Of a stretch of DNA of 64,000 nt, positions 22,426-29,913 are shown one piece after another; position 1 is the first letter of the stretch, and every line of letters starts with the position of its first letter. Location: NCBI GenBank assembly GCA_019637915.1, contig JAHBUV010000001.1:1954565-2018564 (forward strand), read 5' to 3'. The translations under genes and the position numbers were made by a program. This DNA comes from Pseudobdellovibrionaceae bacterium. Its GTDB lineage: Bacteria > Bdellovibrionota > Bdellovibrionia > Bdellovibrionales > Bdellovibrionaceae. Below the pieces are notes generated by a model, which saw only the letters and a program-made list of their open reading frames with translations, did not search any database and was not told where the DNA came from.

Positions 22426-24456
22426 TCAAAGCAGGCTCAAGGGGTCAACGTCGACGAGAACGCGGGCCCCGTTCGGGATCCACTCCTCGTCACCGAGGAT
22501 CTGTCGGGCGAAGGCGTTCAGGCGGTCGGCCCGCGAACCTTTGATGAGCAGCTGAAAACGAAATTGGTTCTTGATGCGGGAAAGGGGCGCTTCCGCCGGG
22601 CCGAGGACTTCGAGACCTTTGTAGGGCTCCCGGGTGCCTTGAAGCGTGCGGGCGCGGTCCGCGAGCCTCTGGGCGGTGACCTGCGCTTTTTCAAGGCCGT
22701 TCGCCTGGATGCGGAAAGCGAGCAGGCGGCCAGACGGCGGGTAGTTCAATTGCCCGCGGAATTGGATCTCGCTTTCGGCGAAGCCCTCGAAATCGTGGTG
22801 CAGGGCGAATCTCAGGCTGTCGTGCTCGGTGTTGTAAGTCTGGACCACGACGGTGCCGGGCTTTTCCCCCTCGCGGATATGACGGCCGCTGCGGCCGGCC
22901 ATCTGCGTGATCAGCTGGAAACTGCGCTCGGTGGCGCGGAAATCGGGAAGGTTGAAGCCGATGTCGGCCAGCACGAGCCCGACCAGTTTGAGTTTCGGGA
23001 AATCAAGGCCTTTGGCGATCATCTGCGTGCCCACGAGGATGTCGATGTCGCCGGTTTCCATCTTTGAAATCAGGTCCTCGAGATCCGCGCGGTTCTGGAT
23101 TTCGTCGCGATCGGCGCGGGCGATGCGGGCGCCGGGGAAAAGCCGGTGCAGGTCCTTTTCCAGCAGCTCGGTGCCGAGACCGATGGCTTCCATCTCGCCC
23201 TCGCTGCAGTCCTGGCATTTGCGGCGGAAATTCTCGTGGTAATCGCAATAGTGGCAAACGAGATGGGTGCCGGCGTGCAAGGTGAGGTTGATGTCGCAGT
23301 TCGGGCATTCGCGCGTGTGCCCGCAGGAGGGGCACACCACCATGTGGGCGAGCCCCCGGCGGTTCAGGAACAAGGCCGCCTGCTCCTGCCGGGCCAGGGT
23401 GTCGATCATGTCGAGATACAGGCGCGGGCTCATCCAGAAAGGCAGGTCCCGGGGGACTTCGCGCTCGGGGGGCTCGGGCTTTCTCAGGTCCACGATGTGC
23501 ATGTCGGGGAGGCTGCGGTTGGCGACGCGGTTCCGCAGCCGATGCAGGTGGTATTTTCCCTCTTTGGCGTTGTTCCAACTCTCAAGACTGGGCGTCGCGG
23601 ATCCCAGCACGACCGGGCATTTGTGGAAACACCCCAGCATCACGGCGGCGTCGCGGCCATGGTATTTCAGTTTTTCCTCCTGCTTGAAACTGGGTTCGTG
23701 CTCTTCGTCGACGACGATGAGCCCCAGGTTCGGCAGGGGGCAGAAGAGCGCGGAGCGGGCGCCGATGAGGATTTTTTTCCTTCCCTCGATCATGTCCCAC
23801 CACTGGTTGGTGCGTTCGCGCGGGGTCAATTGCGAGTGCAGGGCCGCGATGGAATCACCGAAGCGCGAGGCGAAACGATGGATCAGCTGCGGTGTCAGGG
23901 AGATTTCCGGCACCAGCACGAGGCCCGCCTGACCCTTCTCCAGGGTTTTTTCCAGCAAGCGGAGGTAGATTTCCGTTTTCCCGGAGCCCGTCACCCCGAA
24001 CACGAGGTGCGTGGAAAAACCCTCATGACCCTCGATGGCGCCGATGCACGCGGCCTGCTCGGGCGTGAGAACCGGCGGCTCTTGCGAGGCCACCTGCGGA
24101 ATGACCGGGGCCTTGCGGGATTTCTGCTCGCGGCCCTGCTTTTTCAGAGGGGGATAGGCGAGCAAAGAGGTCATCCCCGGGGGATGGATGTAGTACTTCG
24201 ACAGCCATTCCAGCCACTGCACGAAAGGTTCGGGCAGGGTGGCGTGCTCATCGTCGATGCTCTCAATGGATTTGATCGTGAAACCCCCGGGGGCTTCCGC
24301 GGCCGGCCCCAGCACCAGCCCCTGGGTCAGGCGCTTGCCGCGGCCCAAAGGCACGTTGACGAGCTGACCGCGGTGGATGCCGAGTCCGGGCGGGGCCTCG
24401 TAGGTGAGAGCCTCGGGCATGGGGGCGTCCACCGCCACCCGCCACAATTGGCTCAT
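22426..24456 (-). CDS. priA: Primosomal replication restart helicase PriA
   Basis: The 676-residue product has an N-terminal DNA-binding domain (MSQLWRVAVDAPMPEALTYE), Walker A FGVTGSGKTEIYLRLLE, DEEH box VVDEEHEPSFKQ, and motif III VVLGSATPS. It also has the eight-Cys zinc-binding cluster (CPSCGHTRECPNCD ... CHYCDY ... CQDC), and C-terminal helicase motifs QMIAKGLDFP and QMAGRSGR. It reloads DnaB at stalled forks. Start at 24456 gives a four-base ATGA overlap with the upstream gene; longer in-frame forms are not supported. Confidence 0.95.
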   Translation of the reverse strand: MSQLWRVAVDAPMPEALTYEAPPGLGIHRGQLVNVPLGRGKRLTQGLVLGPAAEAPGGFTIKSIESIDDEHATLPEPFVQWLEWLSKYYIHPPGMTSLLAYPPLKKQGREQKSRKAPVIPQVASQEPPVLTPEQAACIGAIEGHEGFSTHLVFGVTGSGKTEIYLRLLEKTLEKGQAGLVLVPEISLTPQLIHRFASRFGDSIAALHSQLTPRERTNQWWDMIEGRKKILIGARSALFCPLPNLGLIVVDEEHEPSFKQEEKLKYHGRDAAVMLGCFHKCPVVLGSATPSLESWNNAKEGKYHLHRLRNRVANRSLPDMHIVDLRKPEPPEREVPRDLPFWMSPRLYLDMIDTLARQEQAALFLNRRGLAHMVVCPSCGHTRECPNCDINLTLHAGTHLVCHYCDYHENFRRKCQDCSEGEMEAIGLGTELLEKDLHRLFPGARIARADRDEIQNRADLEDLISKMETGDIDILVGTQMIAKGLDFPKLKLVGLVLADIGFNLPDFRATERSFQLITQMAGRSGRHIREGEKPGTVVVQTYNTEHDSLRFALHHDFEGFAESEIQFRGQLNYPPSGRLLAFRIQANGLEKAQVTAQRLADRARTLQGTREPYKGLEVLGPAEAPLSRIKNQFRFQLLIKGSRADRLNAFARQILGDEEWIPNGARVLVDVDPLSLL

Positions 24457-25277
24457 CGAAACCTCTTGTAGAACTCCTCGATGACGGGACGGGCGGGCTG
24501 GTTCTCCAGACCCTGCATTCTCCAAACGCTGTCGAGGGCGTTCGTCGACAGGGACGAAACGCCTTTGGCGGAGACATTGGTCACCCGCAGACTGACGGAA
24601 TGGGGGCCCCACTGAATGGAGCGGTTTTTCGGGAACTGCAGCCCGCGGCTGTAAGCGGAGTAATTGTCGGCCAGGATTTCGGTTTGCGAGGGGAAACGCG
24701 CTTTGCGGATCAGGAATTGATCCTGTTCGATCCACAGGCCCGGCGGCCGTTCGACGGAGCCGGGCGCGGCGGGCGCCCCGAAATCCCAGGTGATGACGCC
24801 GGCGGTGCGGCCCAGGCGCAGAAGCGGATCCGGATCGTGTTTGATGTCTTCGGCGCGGCGGGGCAGGGCTTTGCGCTGGAAGACGGAGGCCGGCGCGATT
24901 TTCAAGGCGACGATCTGCTGAAGGGCCGTCTCGAGTTGCCGCCAGTGAAAAAGGCGCTCCACGAATTCCGCCTGCACCGGGGTGGATTCCCGGCGCCCGT
25001 TTTCGCGCAGCACCCATTTCTGGCCGCCGGCGTAGAGGACCTGCAGCTTCAGGTTCGTTTCGCGCGGACCCGTCACGGTGAGTTTCAAATTGCCCGCGTT
25101 GTCGACGATCCAGGTTTCTTTCAGCGTGAGCAGCTCCGGACCGTTCGGGAACTGCACGTCCTGCTCGATGGTGTAGGATCCCGTGCCGGAATTTTCCGCC
25201 GTGCGCTCGATGATCGTGCGGGCGGGGAGGATGTAGGCGGAAGCCAGGAGCGGGAAAAGCAGAACGAGGAGATTCAT
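24453..25277 (-). CDS. Secreted protein of unknown function between galU and priA
   Basis: The 274-residue product begins with a signal peptide (MNLLVLLFPLLASAYILPA). The rest is beta-rich and basic, with repeated strands of the form TIEQDVQF, LKLTVTGP, GVITWDFG. This is compatible with a LolA-like or outer-membrane lipoprotein-sorting fold, but no signature is present. It overlaps galU upstream and priA downstream by four bases each, so all three are translated together. No catalytic motif. A periplasmic location is inferred. Confidence 0.65.
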   Translation of the reverse strand: MNLLVLLFPLLASAYILPARTIIERTAENSGTGSYTIEQDVQFPNGPELLTLKETWIVDNAGNLKLTVTGPRETNLKLQVLYAGGQKWVLRENGRRESTPVQAEFVERLFHWRQLETALQQIVALKIAPASVFQRKALPRRAEDIKHDPDPLLRLGRTAGVITWDFGAPAAPGSVERPPGLWIEQDQFLIRKARFPSQTEILADNYSAYSRGLQFPKNRSIQWGPHSVSLRVTNVSAKGVSSLSTNALDSVWRMQGLENQPARPVIEEFYKRFR

Positions 25278-26170
25278 CGTTTTCCTCCTTGCAGCCGGGC
25301 CGAGAGGCCCAGGATGTAAGACTTCAGTTCGTCGCCCAACTCCGGATTGTCGAGGGCGAGTTCGATATTGGCCTGCAGGTAGCCGAGCTTGTCGCCGGCG
25401 TCGAAACGGCGCGATTCAAAGGTCATGGCGTTCAAACCCTTGTCGCGGCAGAGCACGCGCATGCTGTCGGTGAGTTGGATCTCGCCGTTGAGGGAGGGCT
25501 TGGCGCTTTTCAGGATTTCCATAATGTGATTGTCGAAGACGTAGCGGCCCGGCAGCGCCCAACGGCTTTTGGTCTCCGTGGGTTTGGGTTTTTCAGTGAG
25601 GTCCGTGACCTTGAAAAAACCGGGGCGGATCTCGGTGGTCTCGGCGATCCCGTATTTCGAAACGTCCTTGTCGTCGACTTTCATGATCGAGATCGAGGAC
25701 ACGTTGGTGTCCTCGAAAGAGCGGCACAGCAGGTTCGTGACGTTGCCGGAGGTCGGCGTTTCGGTGGTGATCTCGTCGCCCAAAAGAACGGCGAAGGGAT
25801 CGTCGCCGACGATGGGCAATCCCGTCAGGATGGCGTGACCCAAACCAAGGGCCTGCTTCTGGCGGATGCTGATGATGTTCGCCATGTTGCGGATCCGGCT
25901 CAGTTTTTCCAGCAGGTGAAGCTTTCCGTCTTTGGCCAGGCGGTCTTCGAGTTCGTAGGAGGTGTCGAAAAAATCCTCGATGGCGTGTTTGCCCCGTCCG
26001 GCGATCAGGATGATGTCCTCGATGCCGGCCTTGATGGCTTCCTCGACGACGTAAAAAATAATCGGCGCATCGACGATGGTGAGCATCTCTTTCGGGACTG
26101 TTTTGGTGGCGGGCAGGAAGCGCGTTCCCAAACCGGCGGCCGGAATGATCGCCTTGCGGATTTTGCCCAT
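25274..26170 (-). CDS. galU: UTP-glucose-1-phosphate uridylyltransferase
   Basis: The 298-residue product has the nucleotidyltransferase motif IIPAAGLGTRFLPATKTVPK and the family's KEMLTIVDAPIIFYVVEEAI. It forms UDP-glucose from UTP and glucose-1-phosphate for polysaccharide and LPS precursors. Length and motifs are full. It diverges from the lipoprotein gene at 26271, with a palindromic operator candidate in the 100-base gap. Confidence 0.94.
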   Translation of the reverse strand: MGKIRKAIIPAAGLGTRFLPATKTVPKEMLTIVDAPIIFYVVEEAIKAGIEDIILIAGRGKHAIEDFFDTSYELEDRLAKDGKLHLLEKLSRIRNMANIISIRQKQALGLGHAILTGLPIVGDDPFAVLLGDEITTETPTSGNVTNLLCRSFEDTNVSSISIMKVDDKDVSKYGIAETTEIRPGFFKVTDLTEKPKPTETKSRWALPGRYVFDNHIMEILKSAKPSLNGEIQLTDSMRVLCRDKGLNAMTFESRRFDAGDKLGYLQANIELALDNPELGDELKSYILGLSARLQGGKR

Positions 26171-26270: not shown

Positions 26271-27575
26271 ATGCGTCAGAAGCCATTCCGTTTCGCATCC
26301 GTGATCGTCGCGGCGCTGCTGCTTTCCGTTTCTTTCCAGAACTGCGGCAAAGCCGGTTTTGACGGACAAGATCCCTTGAGCCTCGACCTCTCCAGCAGCG
26401 ATCTCACCGGAACCCCCTTCGCTTTTGACGCCACCTTCGATCAGATTTCCTACAACTCCTGCGCCGCGAGCAATCTGGCCGGTTACTCGGGATTTTACAC
26501 CCTGATGGCCGGCGCCTACCAAAGCGGCGGCGTCTGGACCACGCCGGAATTCAAAAATTACATGAGCGGCGCTTCCGCCCCGGTCAAGCCGATCTACCCG
26601 GCGACCACGCTGACGGTGGATCAGATCAAACAGCACCTGGCGTCGACCCCCGAAAACGTCGAAGCCATCCCGCAAATGGCCCTGCGCCTGCGCACCAACA
26701 TCCAGCAGGTGCGCACGCCCAATTCCAGCGGCGCCACCGAAGGGCTTGATTACATCTCGATGCTCGGCGATCTCACCGACGACCGCTGGATGCATCCGCT
26801 GGTCAACGATCCGGGCTCGGCGTTGTTCTTCAACCTCGCGCCCAACAACGCCCGCCGTCTGGAGGCGCGCCTGACCTACAACAAGGACGAAGGATTGGCG
26901 AAGGGCCTGCGCATGGACCTGTCCTCGTCATCGGTTCTGGCGCTGACTTTCCGTGATCGCGCCGACATGGGCGATGCGACGCGCGTGCGCGTGCCTTACG
27001 TGACCAAGCCCGACGGCACCGTCGGCCCCACCGGCGACAGCACGGTCGGTTTCGGCCGCGGTTATTACCTGACCTTCGATCGCGGCCTGTCCCAGTACAC
27101 GCGCGCGATCCGCGCCACCGTCGACCCGGGCTCGGTCCCCGTGCCCCACACCTTGAATCCCGATAATCTCCTGACGGAAATCCGCGAAGTCAATTTGCGC
27201 ACGCCCTCCGCCGGCACTACGGCCACCTGGGCCTGCCCGGAATCTCGCCGCTACGTCGTCGTGCAACCGGGGGACGCGGACCAGTACTGCCCGCAGGATC
27301 CCTTCGTGTACATGAATGACCCGGCCTACCGCCTGGAATACGAAATCGTGCGCCGCCACTTGAAAAGCGAGAACTGGAGAATCAGCATCCAGTACCGCTG
27401 CGTGGTCCCGATCGAGGGCAGTTGCTACGTGACGCGCGAGCCGAGCGGCGCGGCCCCCATGATCGAATACGATCAAACCCAACCCTGTTACCAGTCCGTC
27501 AGCGATGTTTCGTACGGCAACCCCATCCCGACGAAACGCTGCGCCCAGTACGTGAGCTTCTGCAACCGCAATTGA
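26271..27575 (+). CDS. Cys-rich lipoprotein-like secreted protein, paralogue 1
   Basis: The 434-residue product has a hydrophobic leader ending in LLLSVSFQNCGKAG, with Cys25 placed where a lipid-modified Cys would be. The residues before it (Phe-Gln-Asn) do not match the usual lipobox. The mature part shares with its neighbour the block FAFDATFDQISYNSC and a Cys-rich C-terminus: TWAC, YCPQDPFVYMNDPAY, RC, GSCY, QPCY and KRCAQYVSFC. These even-numbered cysteines suggest disulfides outside the cytoplasm. ATG 26271 is chosen because it directly begins the leader. No enzyme motif. Seven bases separate it from its paralogue. Confidence 0.75.
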   Translation: MRQKPFRFASVIVAALLLSVSFQNCGKAGFDGQDPLSLDLSSSDLTGTPFAFDATFDQISYNSCAASNLAGYSGFYTLMAGAYQSGGVWTTPEFKNYMSGASAPVKPIYPATTLTVDQIKQHLASTPENVEAIPQMALRLRTNIQQVRTPNSSGATEGLDYISMLGDLTDDRWMHPLVNDPGSALFFNLAPNNARRLEARLTYNKDEGLAKGLRMDLSSSSVLALTFRDRADMGDATRVRVPYVTKPDGTVGPTGDSTVGFGRGYYLTFDRGLSQYTRAIRATVDPGSVPVPHTLNPDNLLTEIREVNLRTPSAGTTATWACPESRRYVVVQPGDADQYCPQDPFVYMNDPAYRLEYEIVRRHLKSENWRISIQYRCVVPIEGSCYVTREPSGAAPMIEYDQTQPCYQSVSDVSYGNPIPTKRCAQYVSFCNRN

Positions 27576-27582
27576 GGGCCCC

Positions 27583-28815
27583 ATGAACGGACAAGCGCGA
27601 CAGTCCATTCGGCGGATTCTCCAACGGGTGTCGCTTCTGGCGGCGGCGGGGTCCGCCGCGGTCATTTTCCAGAACTGCGGGAAGGCGGGCTTCGACGCCG
27701 ACCCCCTCCCTCTCACGCTCACGAGTTTGGACGAGTCCGGCGACACGCCCTTCGCTTTCGATGCGGCCTTCGACCAAATCACCTACAACTCCTGCTCCGC
27801 GGTCCGCGCGGGCGGAATGACTGATTTTTTCACTCTGAAGGCGGGCGCCCATGGTTCGGGGGGCGTTTCCATCACGGCGCAATTCCGGGATTACCTGAAA
27901 AGCGGCAAGGACCTCCCTTTGCACGCGCCGGGGCAAGAGCCGAGCGCGGAGCAAATCAAAAACTTCCTGGCCGTCTCGGGCAGGAACGTGGAGGCCCAGC
28001 CGCAGATGGCTCTTCGCGCGATCGCGGATGTCCAAAAAATCGTTCCCGCCTCCGGCAGTCCCGTTCAGTCCCTCCTGCTCTCCGATTTGACGGATGACCG
28101 TTGGATGGATCCCCTGGTGCGCTTCAAAGAGCCGACCCTTCATTTTGATTTGGCGCCTTCGATGCGGAGGTCCCTCGAGGGGAAATTCACCTTCAACCAG
28201 TCCGAAACCCAAGCCGAGGAATTCCGCGGTCTTTTCGCCGACAATGCCCTCATGCTGACCTTCCGGGAGCGATCTGATTTGGGGGACCAGTACGCGGCGC
28301 GCGCGCCGGACGCCGCGTCCCGAAGCGTCGCTTACGGACGCTCCTATGCGCTTTCATTCGCCCGCCCCGGGCAGAACCCCCATTCCAATCTCCTGTCGAG
28401 GATCGAGGAATTTGACCTGCGCCAACCGTCGGCCGTTCTCAAAACGTGGAATTGCGCGGACAACAGGCGCTACGTGGTGATGCACGTTCCGCCCAATCTG
28501 AGCGTTGAGGCGCAAGCGGCCGAACGCCAGAGACTTTGCCCGGCGGACCCTTTCGGCTACATGAGCGATCCGAATTACGCGCGGGAGATGAAGATCGTGC
28601 GCCAGCATCTGAAGGCGGAGGACTGGTGGGTCAGCGTGGCCAACCGTTGCGCCATCCCCCTCAAAGGCGGCTCTTGCTATCCTCTCGAGCCGGATACCAC
28701 GGAGCCGCAAATCGAATACGATCCCGGCCAGCCGTGCTATCCGGGCGTGGGCGGCGGCGCGAATCTGCCGATCAAGCGCTGCGCCCAGTACGTGAGCGTC
28801 TGCACGCGCGACTGA
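27583..28815 (+). CDS. Cys-rich lipoprotein-like secreted protein, paralogue 2
   Basis: The 410-residue product is the tandem duplicate of the preceding protein. It shares FQNCGKAGFD (Cys32), FAFDAAFDQITYNSC, LLSDLTDDRWMDPL, CPADPFGYMSDPNY, and the end KRCAQYVSVCTRD. The charged N-terminus with a long hydrophobic stretch is a signal or anchor. Between conserved blocks the two proteins differ widely, so the duplication is old. Its stop is followed immediately by the convergent stop of the M23 peptidase. Function unknown; periplasmic or surface-exposed location inferred. Confidence 0.75.
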   Translation: MNGQARQSIRRILQRVSLLAAAGSAAVIFQNCGKAGFDADPLPLTLTSLDESGDTPFAFDAAFDQITYNSCSAVRAGGMTDFFTLKAGAHGSGGVSITAQFRDYLKSGKDLPLHAPGQEPSAEQIKNFLAVSGRNVEAQPQMALRAIADVQKIVPASGSPVQSLLLSDLTDDRWMDPLVRFKEPTLHFDLAPSMRRSLEGKFTFNQSETQAEEFRGLFADNALMLTFRERSDLGDQYAARAPDAASRSVAYGRSYALSFARPGQNPHSNLLSRIEEFDLRQPSAVLKTWNCADNRRYVVMHVPPNLSVEAQAAERQRLCPADPFGYMSDPNYAREMKIVRQHLKAEDWWVSVANRCAIPLKGGSCYPLEPDTTEPQIEYDPGQPCYPGVGGGANLPIKRCAQYVSVCTRD

Positions 28816-29913
28816 TCAGCGGCGCGCCACTCTTTCCTGCAAAGATTCTTCGTAATGCGCCGGGAACATCTTCAGGTATTTCACCGGATTCACCATGCGG
28901 CCGCGCACTTTCACGGTGAAGTGCAGGTGCGGTTTCGTGCAGTAGCCGGTGCAGCCGACTTCGGCGATTTTCTGTCCCAGTTGCACGAGCTGACCTTCGC
29001 GCAGGTTCGACGGCAAACGGCGCAGGTGGTTGTAAGAGGTCTCGATGCCGTTGGCGTGCAACAGCACCACGTAGTTGCCGGCGGCGTGATTGCGGCCCAT
29101 GCGCACCACGGTGCCTTTGCGGGGGGCGTAGATGGCCTCGCCCTGCGGAAGCTCGAAATCGATGCCGAGATGGGGCTGCACGCGCCGGGTGATGGGATGG
29201 CGGCGGTCGGGTTGGAAGAGGCTCGCGATGCGCAGGTAATTCACCGGCGCGTAAAAGGGACGGTCCGACAAAAGATCCTGGGCGCTGATGAAAACCCCGC
29301 CGTTGCCGAAACGCATGAACTCCTTGCGGACCATCTGGCCGTCGATCTCAAGACCGACCTTCAGCACTTCGCCGTAGCGGATGAGGTGGGGCCCCTCGTA
29401 TTTTTTTTCCAGAGTGAGCTCGAAGCGATCGCCCGGGTGAACGCGCTCCAGATCATGCTCGAGAAGATAAGCGTCCATGAAACGCGAAGCGATCCAGTTG
29501 GAGGGCACGCGGGCCATGAGGCTGCCCATGAGGGAACCGCGGATTTCACCGCGGATGGATTCCTGCACGACGCGGAAATCCGGTTTCACCAGGTCCGCCC
29601 CGCTTTTCCCCTGTTTTTTCCACAGGACGTAGGCGACGTCGCTCTGGCTGTCGAAAATCTTCAACGAGGCGGCGTTGGAACCGCCGCTCACGAAATATTT
29701 CATCTTCGGCGTGATCATCAGCGAATCCAGCCCCGGCGCCAGTTGCAGGATCCGGGCGCGCTCCGCGGTGCTGAAACCATGGCGACGCAGCAAAGTGACG
29801 ACATTGTCACCGAGGCGGATGCTGCGGGCGGAAAAGGCGTTGTCGCTGCCGAAAGCCGTTTGGTAGGATCCGATGGTCAGAGAGAAAGCCAGAGCGAAGA
29901 CGAGGTGTTTCAA
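28816..29913 (-). CDS. M23 (LytM) metallopeptidase, periplasmic
   Basis: The 365-residue product has a signal peptide (MKHLVFALAFSLTIGSYQTA). A LysM-like or OapA-like region (about 28-75, LLRRHGFSTAERARILQLAP) and a linker follow, then a complete LytM domain (about 240-355). Zinc ligands are present: HLGIDFELPQG (His and Asp) and HLHFTVKVRG (His-x-His). This is an active-type peptidoglycan endopeptidase like MepM. The start codon is TTG (29913-29911), with AAGGA seven bases before. It is head-to-head with the barrel gene; the two start codons share base 29913. Confidence 0.88.
   Translation of the reverse strand: MKHLVFALAFSLTIGSYQTAFGSDNAFSARSIRLGDNVVTLLRRHGFSTAERARILQLAPGLDSLMITPKMKYFVSGGSNAASLKIFDSQSDVAYVLWKKQGKSGADLVKPDFRVVQESIRGEIRGSLMGSLMARVPSNWIASRFMDAYLLEHDLERVHPGDRFELTLEKKYEGPHLIRYGEVLKVGLEIDGQMVRKEFMRFGNGGVFISAQDLLSDRPFYAPVNYLRIASLFQPDRRHPITRRVQPHLGIDFELPQGEAIYAPRKGTVVRMGRNHAAGNYVVLLHANGIETSYNHLRRLPSNLREGQLVQLGQKIAEVGCTGYCTKPHLHFTVKVRGRMVNPVKYLKMFPAHYEESLQERVARR

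Follow-up and report, generated by a model that had tools for sequence, protein, structure and literature searches.

To test whether two neighbouring genes of a Pseudobdellovibrionaceae bacterium (GCA_019637915.1, contig JAHBUV010000001.1) indeed share an unusual lipobox-like sequence, we examined them in the 64,000-nucleotide stretch that contains them (positions 1,954,565 to 2,018,564 of the contig, hereafter the window) and then compared the two genes with genomes of the same order, Bdellovibrionales, and of the rest of the phylum. The original prediction, that two diverged tandem proteins share a Phe-Gln-Asn-Cys (FQNC) box, the block FAFDA..FDQI.YNSC and a Cys-rich C-terminus containing KRCAQYVS.C, was confirmed. 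The two products, ORF1 and ORF2, are 44% identical (BLASTP, 428 columns, E 5e-108), and in both FQNCGKAGFD follows a charged/hydrophobic leader, of 21 and 28 residues before the Phe, respectively. Each mature protein carries nine cysteines, namely the Cys of the FQNC box and eight others that are invariant in 28 aligned family members. The coordinates of these features, and of those found elsewhere in the course of this work, are given in Table 1.

Table 1. Features of the window, of the genome that contains it (G000, contig C1) and of individual loci (L numbers) fetched from other genomes.
Sequence	Coordinates	Strand	Feature
window	24453-25277		262-274 aa protein without Pfam match, beside putative priA
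window	25274..26170	-	nucleotidyl transferase (PF00483)
window	26271..27575	+	ORF1, 434 aa putative lipoprotein of an order-specific family with eight invariant mature Cys
window	26271..26342	+	signal peptide of ORF1 up to the Asn of FQN
window	26334..26345	+	FQNC box 1 (Phe-Gln-Asn | Cys); G000:C1:1980898-1980909
window	27583..28815	+	ORF2, 410 aa tandem paralogue
window	27583..27675	+	signal peptide of ORF2 up to the Asn of FQN
window	27667..27678	+	FQNC box 2; G000:C1:1982231-1982242
window	28816..29913	-	M23 peptidase family protein
G000:C1	1312784-1313671		second LspA, fused to a C-terminal membrane extension
G000:C1	3091263-3091679		third, standard-length LspA, above the TIGR00077 cut-off
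L248	3735-4523		counterpart in the reduced genome G208 of the window's 24453-25277 protein
L284	793-3900		1036-aa Cys-rich protein (55 Cys) with a YQQC box, near the fused lspA of genome G201
L285	3543-4967		neighbour of fused lspA, FQN followed by F
L326	904-3969		neighbour of fused lspA, FQN followed by M
L332	1-3828	-	neighbour of fused lspA, FQN followed by F
L335	1382-3841	-	neighbour of fused lspA, FQN followed by G

We next asked to which family the two proteins belong. Neither matched a Pfam or NCBIfam model at E 1, and no PDB sequence match below E 0.29 was obtained. An AlphaFold2 model was confident (pLDDT 89, pTM 0.85), yet it showed no clear relative among solved structures, the best Foldseek match having an E of 0.51 and the best VIA-align match, to a C2 domain, a Z of only 4.2, as part of a list of weak C2-like arrangements under Z 5. 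No function could be assigned by family or by fold. A search of the genome itself for homologues beyond the pair gave only a weak third match (E 0.03), and a search for related loci gave one named relative, a Bdellovibrionaceae MAG. The family was found in 50 of 53 order genomes and in 0 of 138 other genomes of the phylum drawn, mostly as one copy, and the tandem pair of the window is sister in the family tree (99/59), so it looks like a recent duplication. The neighbourhood is conserved as well, since the protein without Pfam match lies beside putative priA, near the FQNC-family gene, both here (with the nucleotidyl transferase gene in between) and in G208.

FQNC boxes across Bdellovibrionales

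To examine whether the FQNC box arises by chance, we counted the codon pattern TTYCARAAYTGY in the genome and found it 12 times, against 3 for the reversed pattern, with 8 of the 12 located directly after a hydrophobic leader of an ORF. We then searched for ten codons without A at the second base followed by FQNC. This pattern gave 675 matches against 25 for the reversed control in the 53 order genomes, and 86 against 26 in 138 genomes of the phylum outside the order (per-genome tables were transcribed by hand for these sums and for the co-loss statistics below, and the reversed control is only approximate for codon composition). One order genome, G007, has 56 such matches, far above the median of about ten, indicating an expansion of the class. 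Fifty-seven such proteins, collected from fetched loci of seven order genomes, fall into 32 clusters that share no mature sequence at E 1e-3; their leaders differ in sequence and length and only the box is constant. The residue after the Cys is S, A, G or T in 57 of 57, and the residue before the Phe is S, A or G in 43. Where recognizable, their domains are cytochrome c, DUF1592-type planctomycete domains, von Willebrand A, PA14, carbohydrate-binding and cellulase domains, as expected outside the cytoplasm.

Notably, FQNC behaves as a lipobox. The FQNC proteins have the positively charged start and the hydrophobic stretch ending at a conserved Cys that are typical of lipoproteins, though FQN departs at -3, -2 and -1 from the consensus [LV][ASTVI][GAS]C (PMC8689077). 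Among 84 family rows, 69 have Asn at -1 (58 FQNC, 6 YQNC and one each of VQNC, HQNC, FNNC, FENC and YLNC), while 15 do not, most of these having textbook boxes such as LSGC, LAGC, LGGC, VSGC and LISC at the same Cys (three rows have FNAC, and the boxes of genomes G272 and G257 are uncertain). These rows do not include order genomes for which no orthologue was fetched, nor genome G240, which was left out beforehand because its N-terminus was not resolved. Within a single genus, g2, the same gene has FQNC in two genomes and LAGC, VSGC, VFSC or LISC in four (genomes G002, G021, G027, G031, G034 and G230). In a 400 kb sample of G036, a genome of the same family as that of the window, 24 leader-Cys candidates were found, 18 with A, G or S at -1, two with N (both FQN) and four with other residues, such that two discrete classes live side by side. 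The total number of cysteines is odd in 83 of 84 family rows; however, this parity does not mark the FQNC class, as ordinary [GAS]C lipoproteins in the G036 sample and the window show it as well (15 of 16 complete).

A second, fused LspA and its association with polar lipoboxes

Having characterized the box, we searched for an enzyme that may recognize it. The residues F, Q and N are on the part that would be cut off, and so we infer that only Lgt and the signal peptidase, besides export factors, can read them. Most of 59 relatives carry at least two lspA genes, a standard one near 175 aa, found in nearly all of them, and a longer one of about 300-320 aa, which comprises a complete LspA domain and a C-terminal membrane extension ending in SHR.AGP.YAFE...LKLR.GDEFKHLE; further copies occur in several relatives. 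Pfam recognizes only the LspA part of the fused protein (PF01252, 83.2 and 80.7 bits, cut-off 25), and the protein misses the cut-off of the NCBIfam equivalog TIGR00077 (48.4 and 44.6 bits, cut-off 73.95), whereas the 159-aa standard-length copy scores 90.8. Nevertheless, the LspA active-site residues, including the two presumed catalytic Asp, D117 and D135, are invariant in 15 aligned rows, the protein was aligned to the LspA of 9emz, and an AF2 model (pLDDT 77, pTM 0.60) matches the LspA crystal structures 5dir, 6ryp and 6ryo (Foldseek E 2.7e-7 to 7.4e-6; 5dir E 2.7e-7, TM-score by target 0.73).

We next compared the occurrence of the fused LspA with that of FQNC. Of 140 order genomes, 118 have an intact-looking fused LspA, 6 a degenerate one and 1 a fragment, and in 15 none was found. 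Remarkably, the ten genomes of one clade (genera g47, g148, g154 and g155), of which 4 lack the fused LspA and 6 have a degenerate one, have leader-FQNC counts of 0,0,0,0,0,0,0,0,1,2. The copy of G272 lost both catalytic Asp, and others lost the N.G or GN..DR motifs. Nine of these ten genomes have a recovered orthologue of the window's family, and none of the nine has Asn at -1. The genes stayed while the signal changed, so loss of genes in small genomes does not explain the pattern, and small genomes outside the clade keep more matches (Mann-Whitney p 2e-4). That said, the nine orthologues form one branch of the family tree (99/81), so the joint loss is about one event, and it goes with genome reduction. 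Of the other 130 genomes, 11 that bear FQNC show no fused LspA where incompleteness predicts 9.8, but two of these, G230 (99% complete, 21 matches) and G056 (98%, 14 matches), are hard to excuse (expected 0.75 among 68; P 0.17). Conversely, three genomes with an intact fused LspA have only 1-2 matches (G039, G037 and G235) and one 61%-complete genome (G253) has none, and in four genomes of genus g2 and in genome G055 family members have ordinary boxes although the fused LspA is intact (it is present in five of the six g2 genomes and was not found in G230).

The fused LspA does not occur only with FQNC but is wider in the phylum, and we examined its gene neighbourhood outside the order. There, 33 loci with long fused-LspA matches were fetched. 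In the first 13, polar boxes were seen beside lspA in 8, and in one more (L250) on a looser scan. We then fetched 20 further loci and 400 kb of control stretches, and, using the criterion of N, Q or H at -1, set before reading them, found such a protein in 10 of the 20 new loci, whereas the control had one in 17 candidates, ADQC, without an aromatic residue; an eleventh locus appeared on the looser scan. With a single scanner for (F/Y/L/H/W)(Q/N/T)(N/Q/H)C, a motif fixed after reading the loci, a polar-lipobox protein was found in 20 of 33 fused-lspA loci outside the order (27 proteins in 7 unrelated clusters), in 0 of 13 standard-lspA loci, in 0 of 15 fused-lspA loci inside the order, in 0 of 6 degenerate loci and in 0 of 20 control stretches. 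The boxes include FQNC, YNQC, YNHC, YTQC and YQNC, and in 18 of the 20 loci the protein is encoded on the same strand within 68 nt of, or overlapping, lspA. G201, which first looked like a counterexample, has a YQQC protein with one gene between it and the fused lspA. In addition, a second small polar-lipobox protein (about 200-225 aa), a few kb from fused lspA, recurs in seven loci as a family of its own (L316, L318, L320, L321, L323, L325 and L327). Thirteen of the 33 loci lack a polar Cys box by the scanner, and four of them (L285, L326, L332 and L335) have a neighbour with FQN directly after a leader but F, M or G instead of Cys, which LspA theory does not predict and which reflects either a non-lipidated use of the same cut signal or decayed boxes.

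Interpretation and relation to known systems

To summarize, these data support the original prediction of a lineage-specific sorting or lipidation signal, and the signal is confined mainly to one order plus fused-LspA loci elsewhere in the phylum, though neither lipidation nor sorting is shown; the probable enzyme and its operon linkage to polar-lipobox proteins lay beyond that prediction. We favor the explanation, at a probability of roughly 0.77 and without an examination of Lgt or data on lipids or N-termini, that FQNC is an alternative lipobox, in which Lgt would lipidate the Cys and the fused LspA, as a dedicated signal peptidase II, would cut between Asn and Cys. This enzyme would accept a bulky polar residue (N, Q or H) at -1 and an aromatic one at -3, while the ordinary LspA copies handle the [GAS]C lipoproteins of the same cell, and the two window genes would be a recent tandem duplicate of an order-specific, probably disulfide-rich lipoprotein family that uses this signal. 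In other families of the phylum the fused LspA often comes as an enzyme-substrate operon, whereas in Bdellovibrionales its gene stands alone and would serve about ten proteins per genome (median of intact genomes 10.5). More tentatively, Bdellovibrionota may run two orthogonal maturation lines in one cell, ordinary LspA for [GAS]|C and fused LspA for (F/Y)(Q/N/T)(N/Q/H)|C, the second having begun as single enzyme-substrate operons and grown into a class of about 10 to 50 proteins in Bdellovibrionales, possibly with its own destination (for example, the predator's outer surface); the FQN-without-Cys neighbours would then mean that the enzyme can act without lipidation.

Other explanations appear less likely. 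FQNC could be handled by the ordinary LspA, or an altered Lgt, with relaxed specificity, while the fused LspA does something else. Asn at -1 is reported for verified spirochete lipoproteins, for which changes in Lgt/Lsp are proposed (PMC4758666), ordinary-length LspA is nearly ubiquitous among the relatives, and G230 and G056 have FQNC without a detected fused LspA. However, relaxation predicts a smear of -1 residues, unlike the distribution in the G036 sample, polar boxes sit beside fused and not beside the 13 standard lspA loci, and the loss clade keeps ordinary LspA matches yet has no Asn at -1 in the family; we consider this rival unlikely. It is more doubtful still that FQNC is not processed, with the leader remaining as a membrane anchor and the Cys free, disulfide-bonded or used otherwise. 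The four loci with FQN but no Cys fit this view, and processing has not been measured, but a leader Cys is kept in the family rows, orthologues swap to textbook boxes at the same Cys (the G272 assignment being unsure), and the odd total of cysteines fits a Cys outside the disulfides.

The many unrelated mature domains that share the box could also suggest a mobile module, in which one ancestral leader was copied onto many proteins and its conservation reflects descent rather than recognition. This is very unlikely given the variety of the leaders, and since outside the order the boxes vary as FQN, YNQ, YNH, YTQ and FTH in a chemically coherent way, which points to selection. Least likely of all is breakage of the Asn-Cys bond by Asn cyclisation without a peptidase; Q and H replace N at -1 outside the order, His cannot cyclise this way, and the linkage to an LspA gene would be unexplained.

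If the favored explanation holds, this would be a second lipobox code with its own peptidase, coexisting with the standard one, and Bdellovibrio lipoproteomes predicted with the standard lipobox would miss the class. It offers a natural pair for studying how LspA chooses substrates and an orthogonal tag for membrane display, and it marks a core set of envelope proteins of predatory bacteria whose functions are unknown. In our literature searches (papers consulted include PMC11003981, PMC10127604 and PMC7511926), which did not cover subscription literature, no listed paper described, by title and abstract start, an FQN lipobox or a fused LspA with its own lipobox, and, judged in the same way, the listed papers containing the string FQNC concerned vasopressin and other unrelated sequences.

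Compared with known systems, the proposed pair shares with bacterial lipoprotein maturation by Lgt and LspA the charged start, the hydrophobic stretch, the Cys at the expected distance and an LspA domain with intact catalytic residues, but all three residues before the Cys depart from the consensus, with Asn (also Gln or His outside the order) at -1, and the proposed enzyme carries a C-terminal membrane extension. In Leptospira, bulky or polar residues likewise occur at -1, with changes in Lgt/Lsp proposed to match (PMC4758666), yet there the -1 position is loose, whereas here a fixed alternative motif coexists with ordinary boxes and goes with a separate LspA paralogue. Myxococcus xanthus also has several LspA in one genome, of which two are called housekeeping and two belong to an antibiotic gene cluster, without a stated lipobox specificity in the text consulted (PMC8689077). 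Finally, MYXO-CTERM/myxosortase and the MrtJ/JDVT-CTERM two-gene pairs offer a parallel of logic, namely a dedicated membrane protease with dozens of clients in some lineages and a two-gene enzyme-target pair in others, with proposed Cys lipidation before cleavage (PMC11980579), though they employ a C-terminal tag and a CPBP-family protease, as opposed to the N-terminal signal peptide and LspA-family peptidase considered here.
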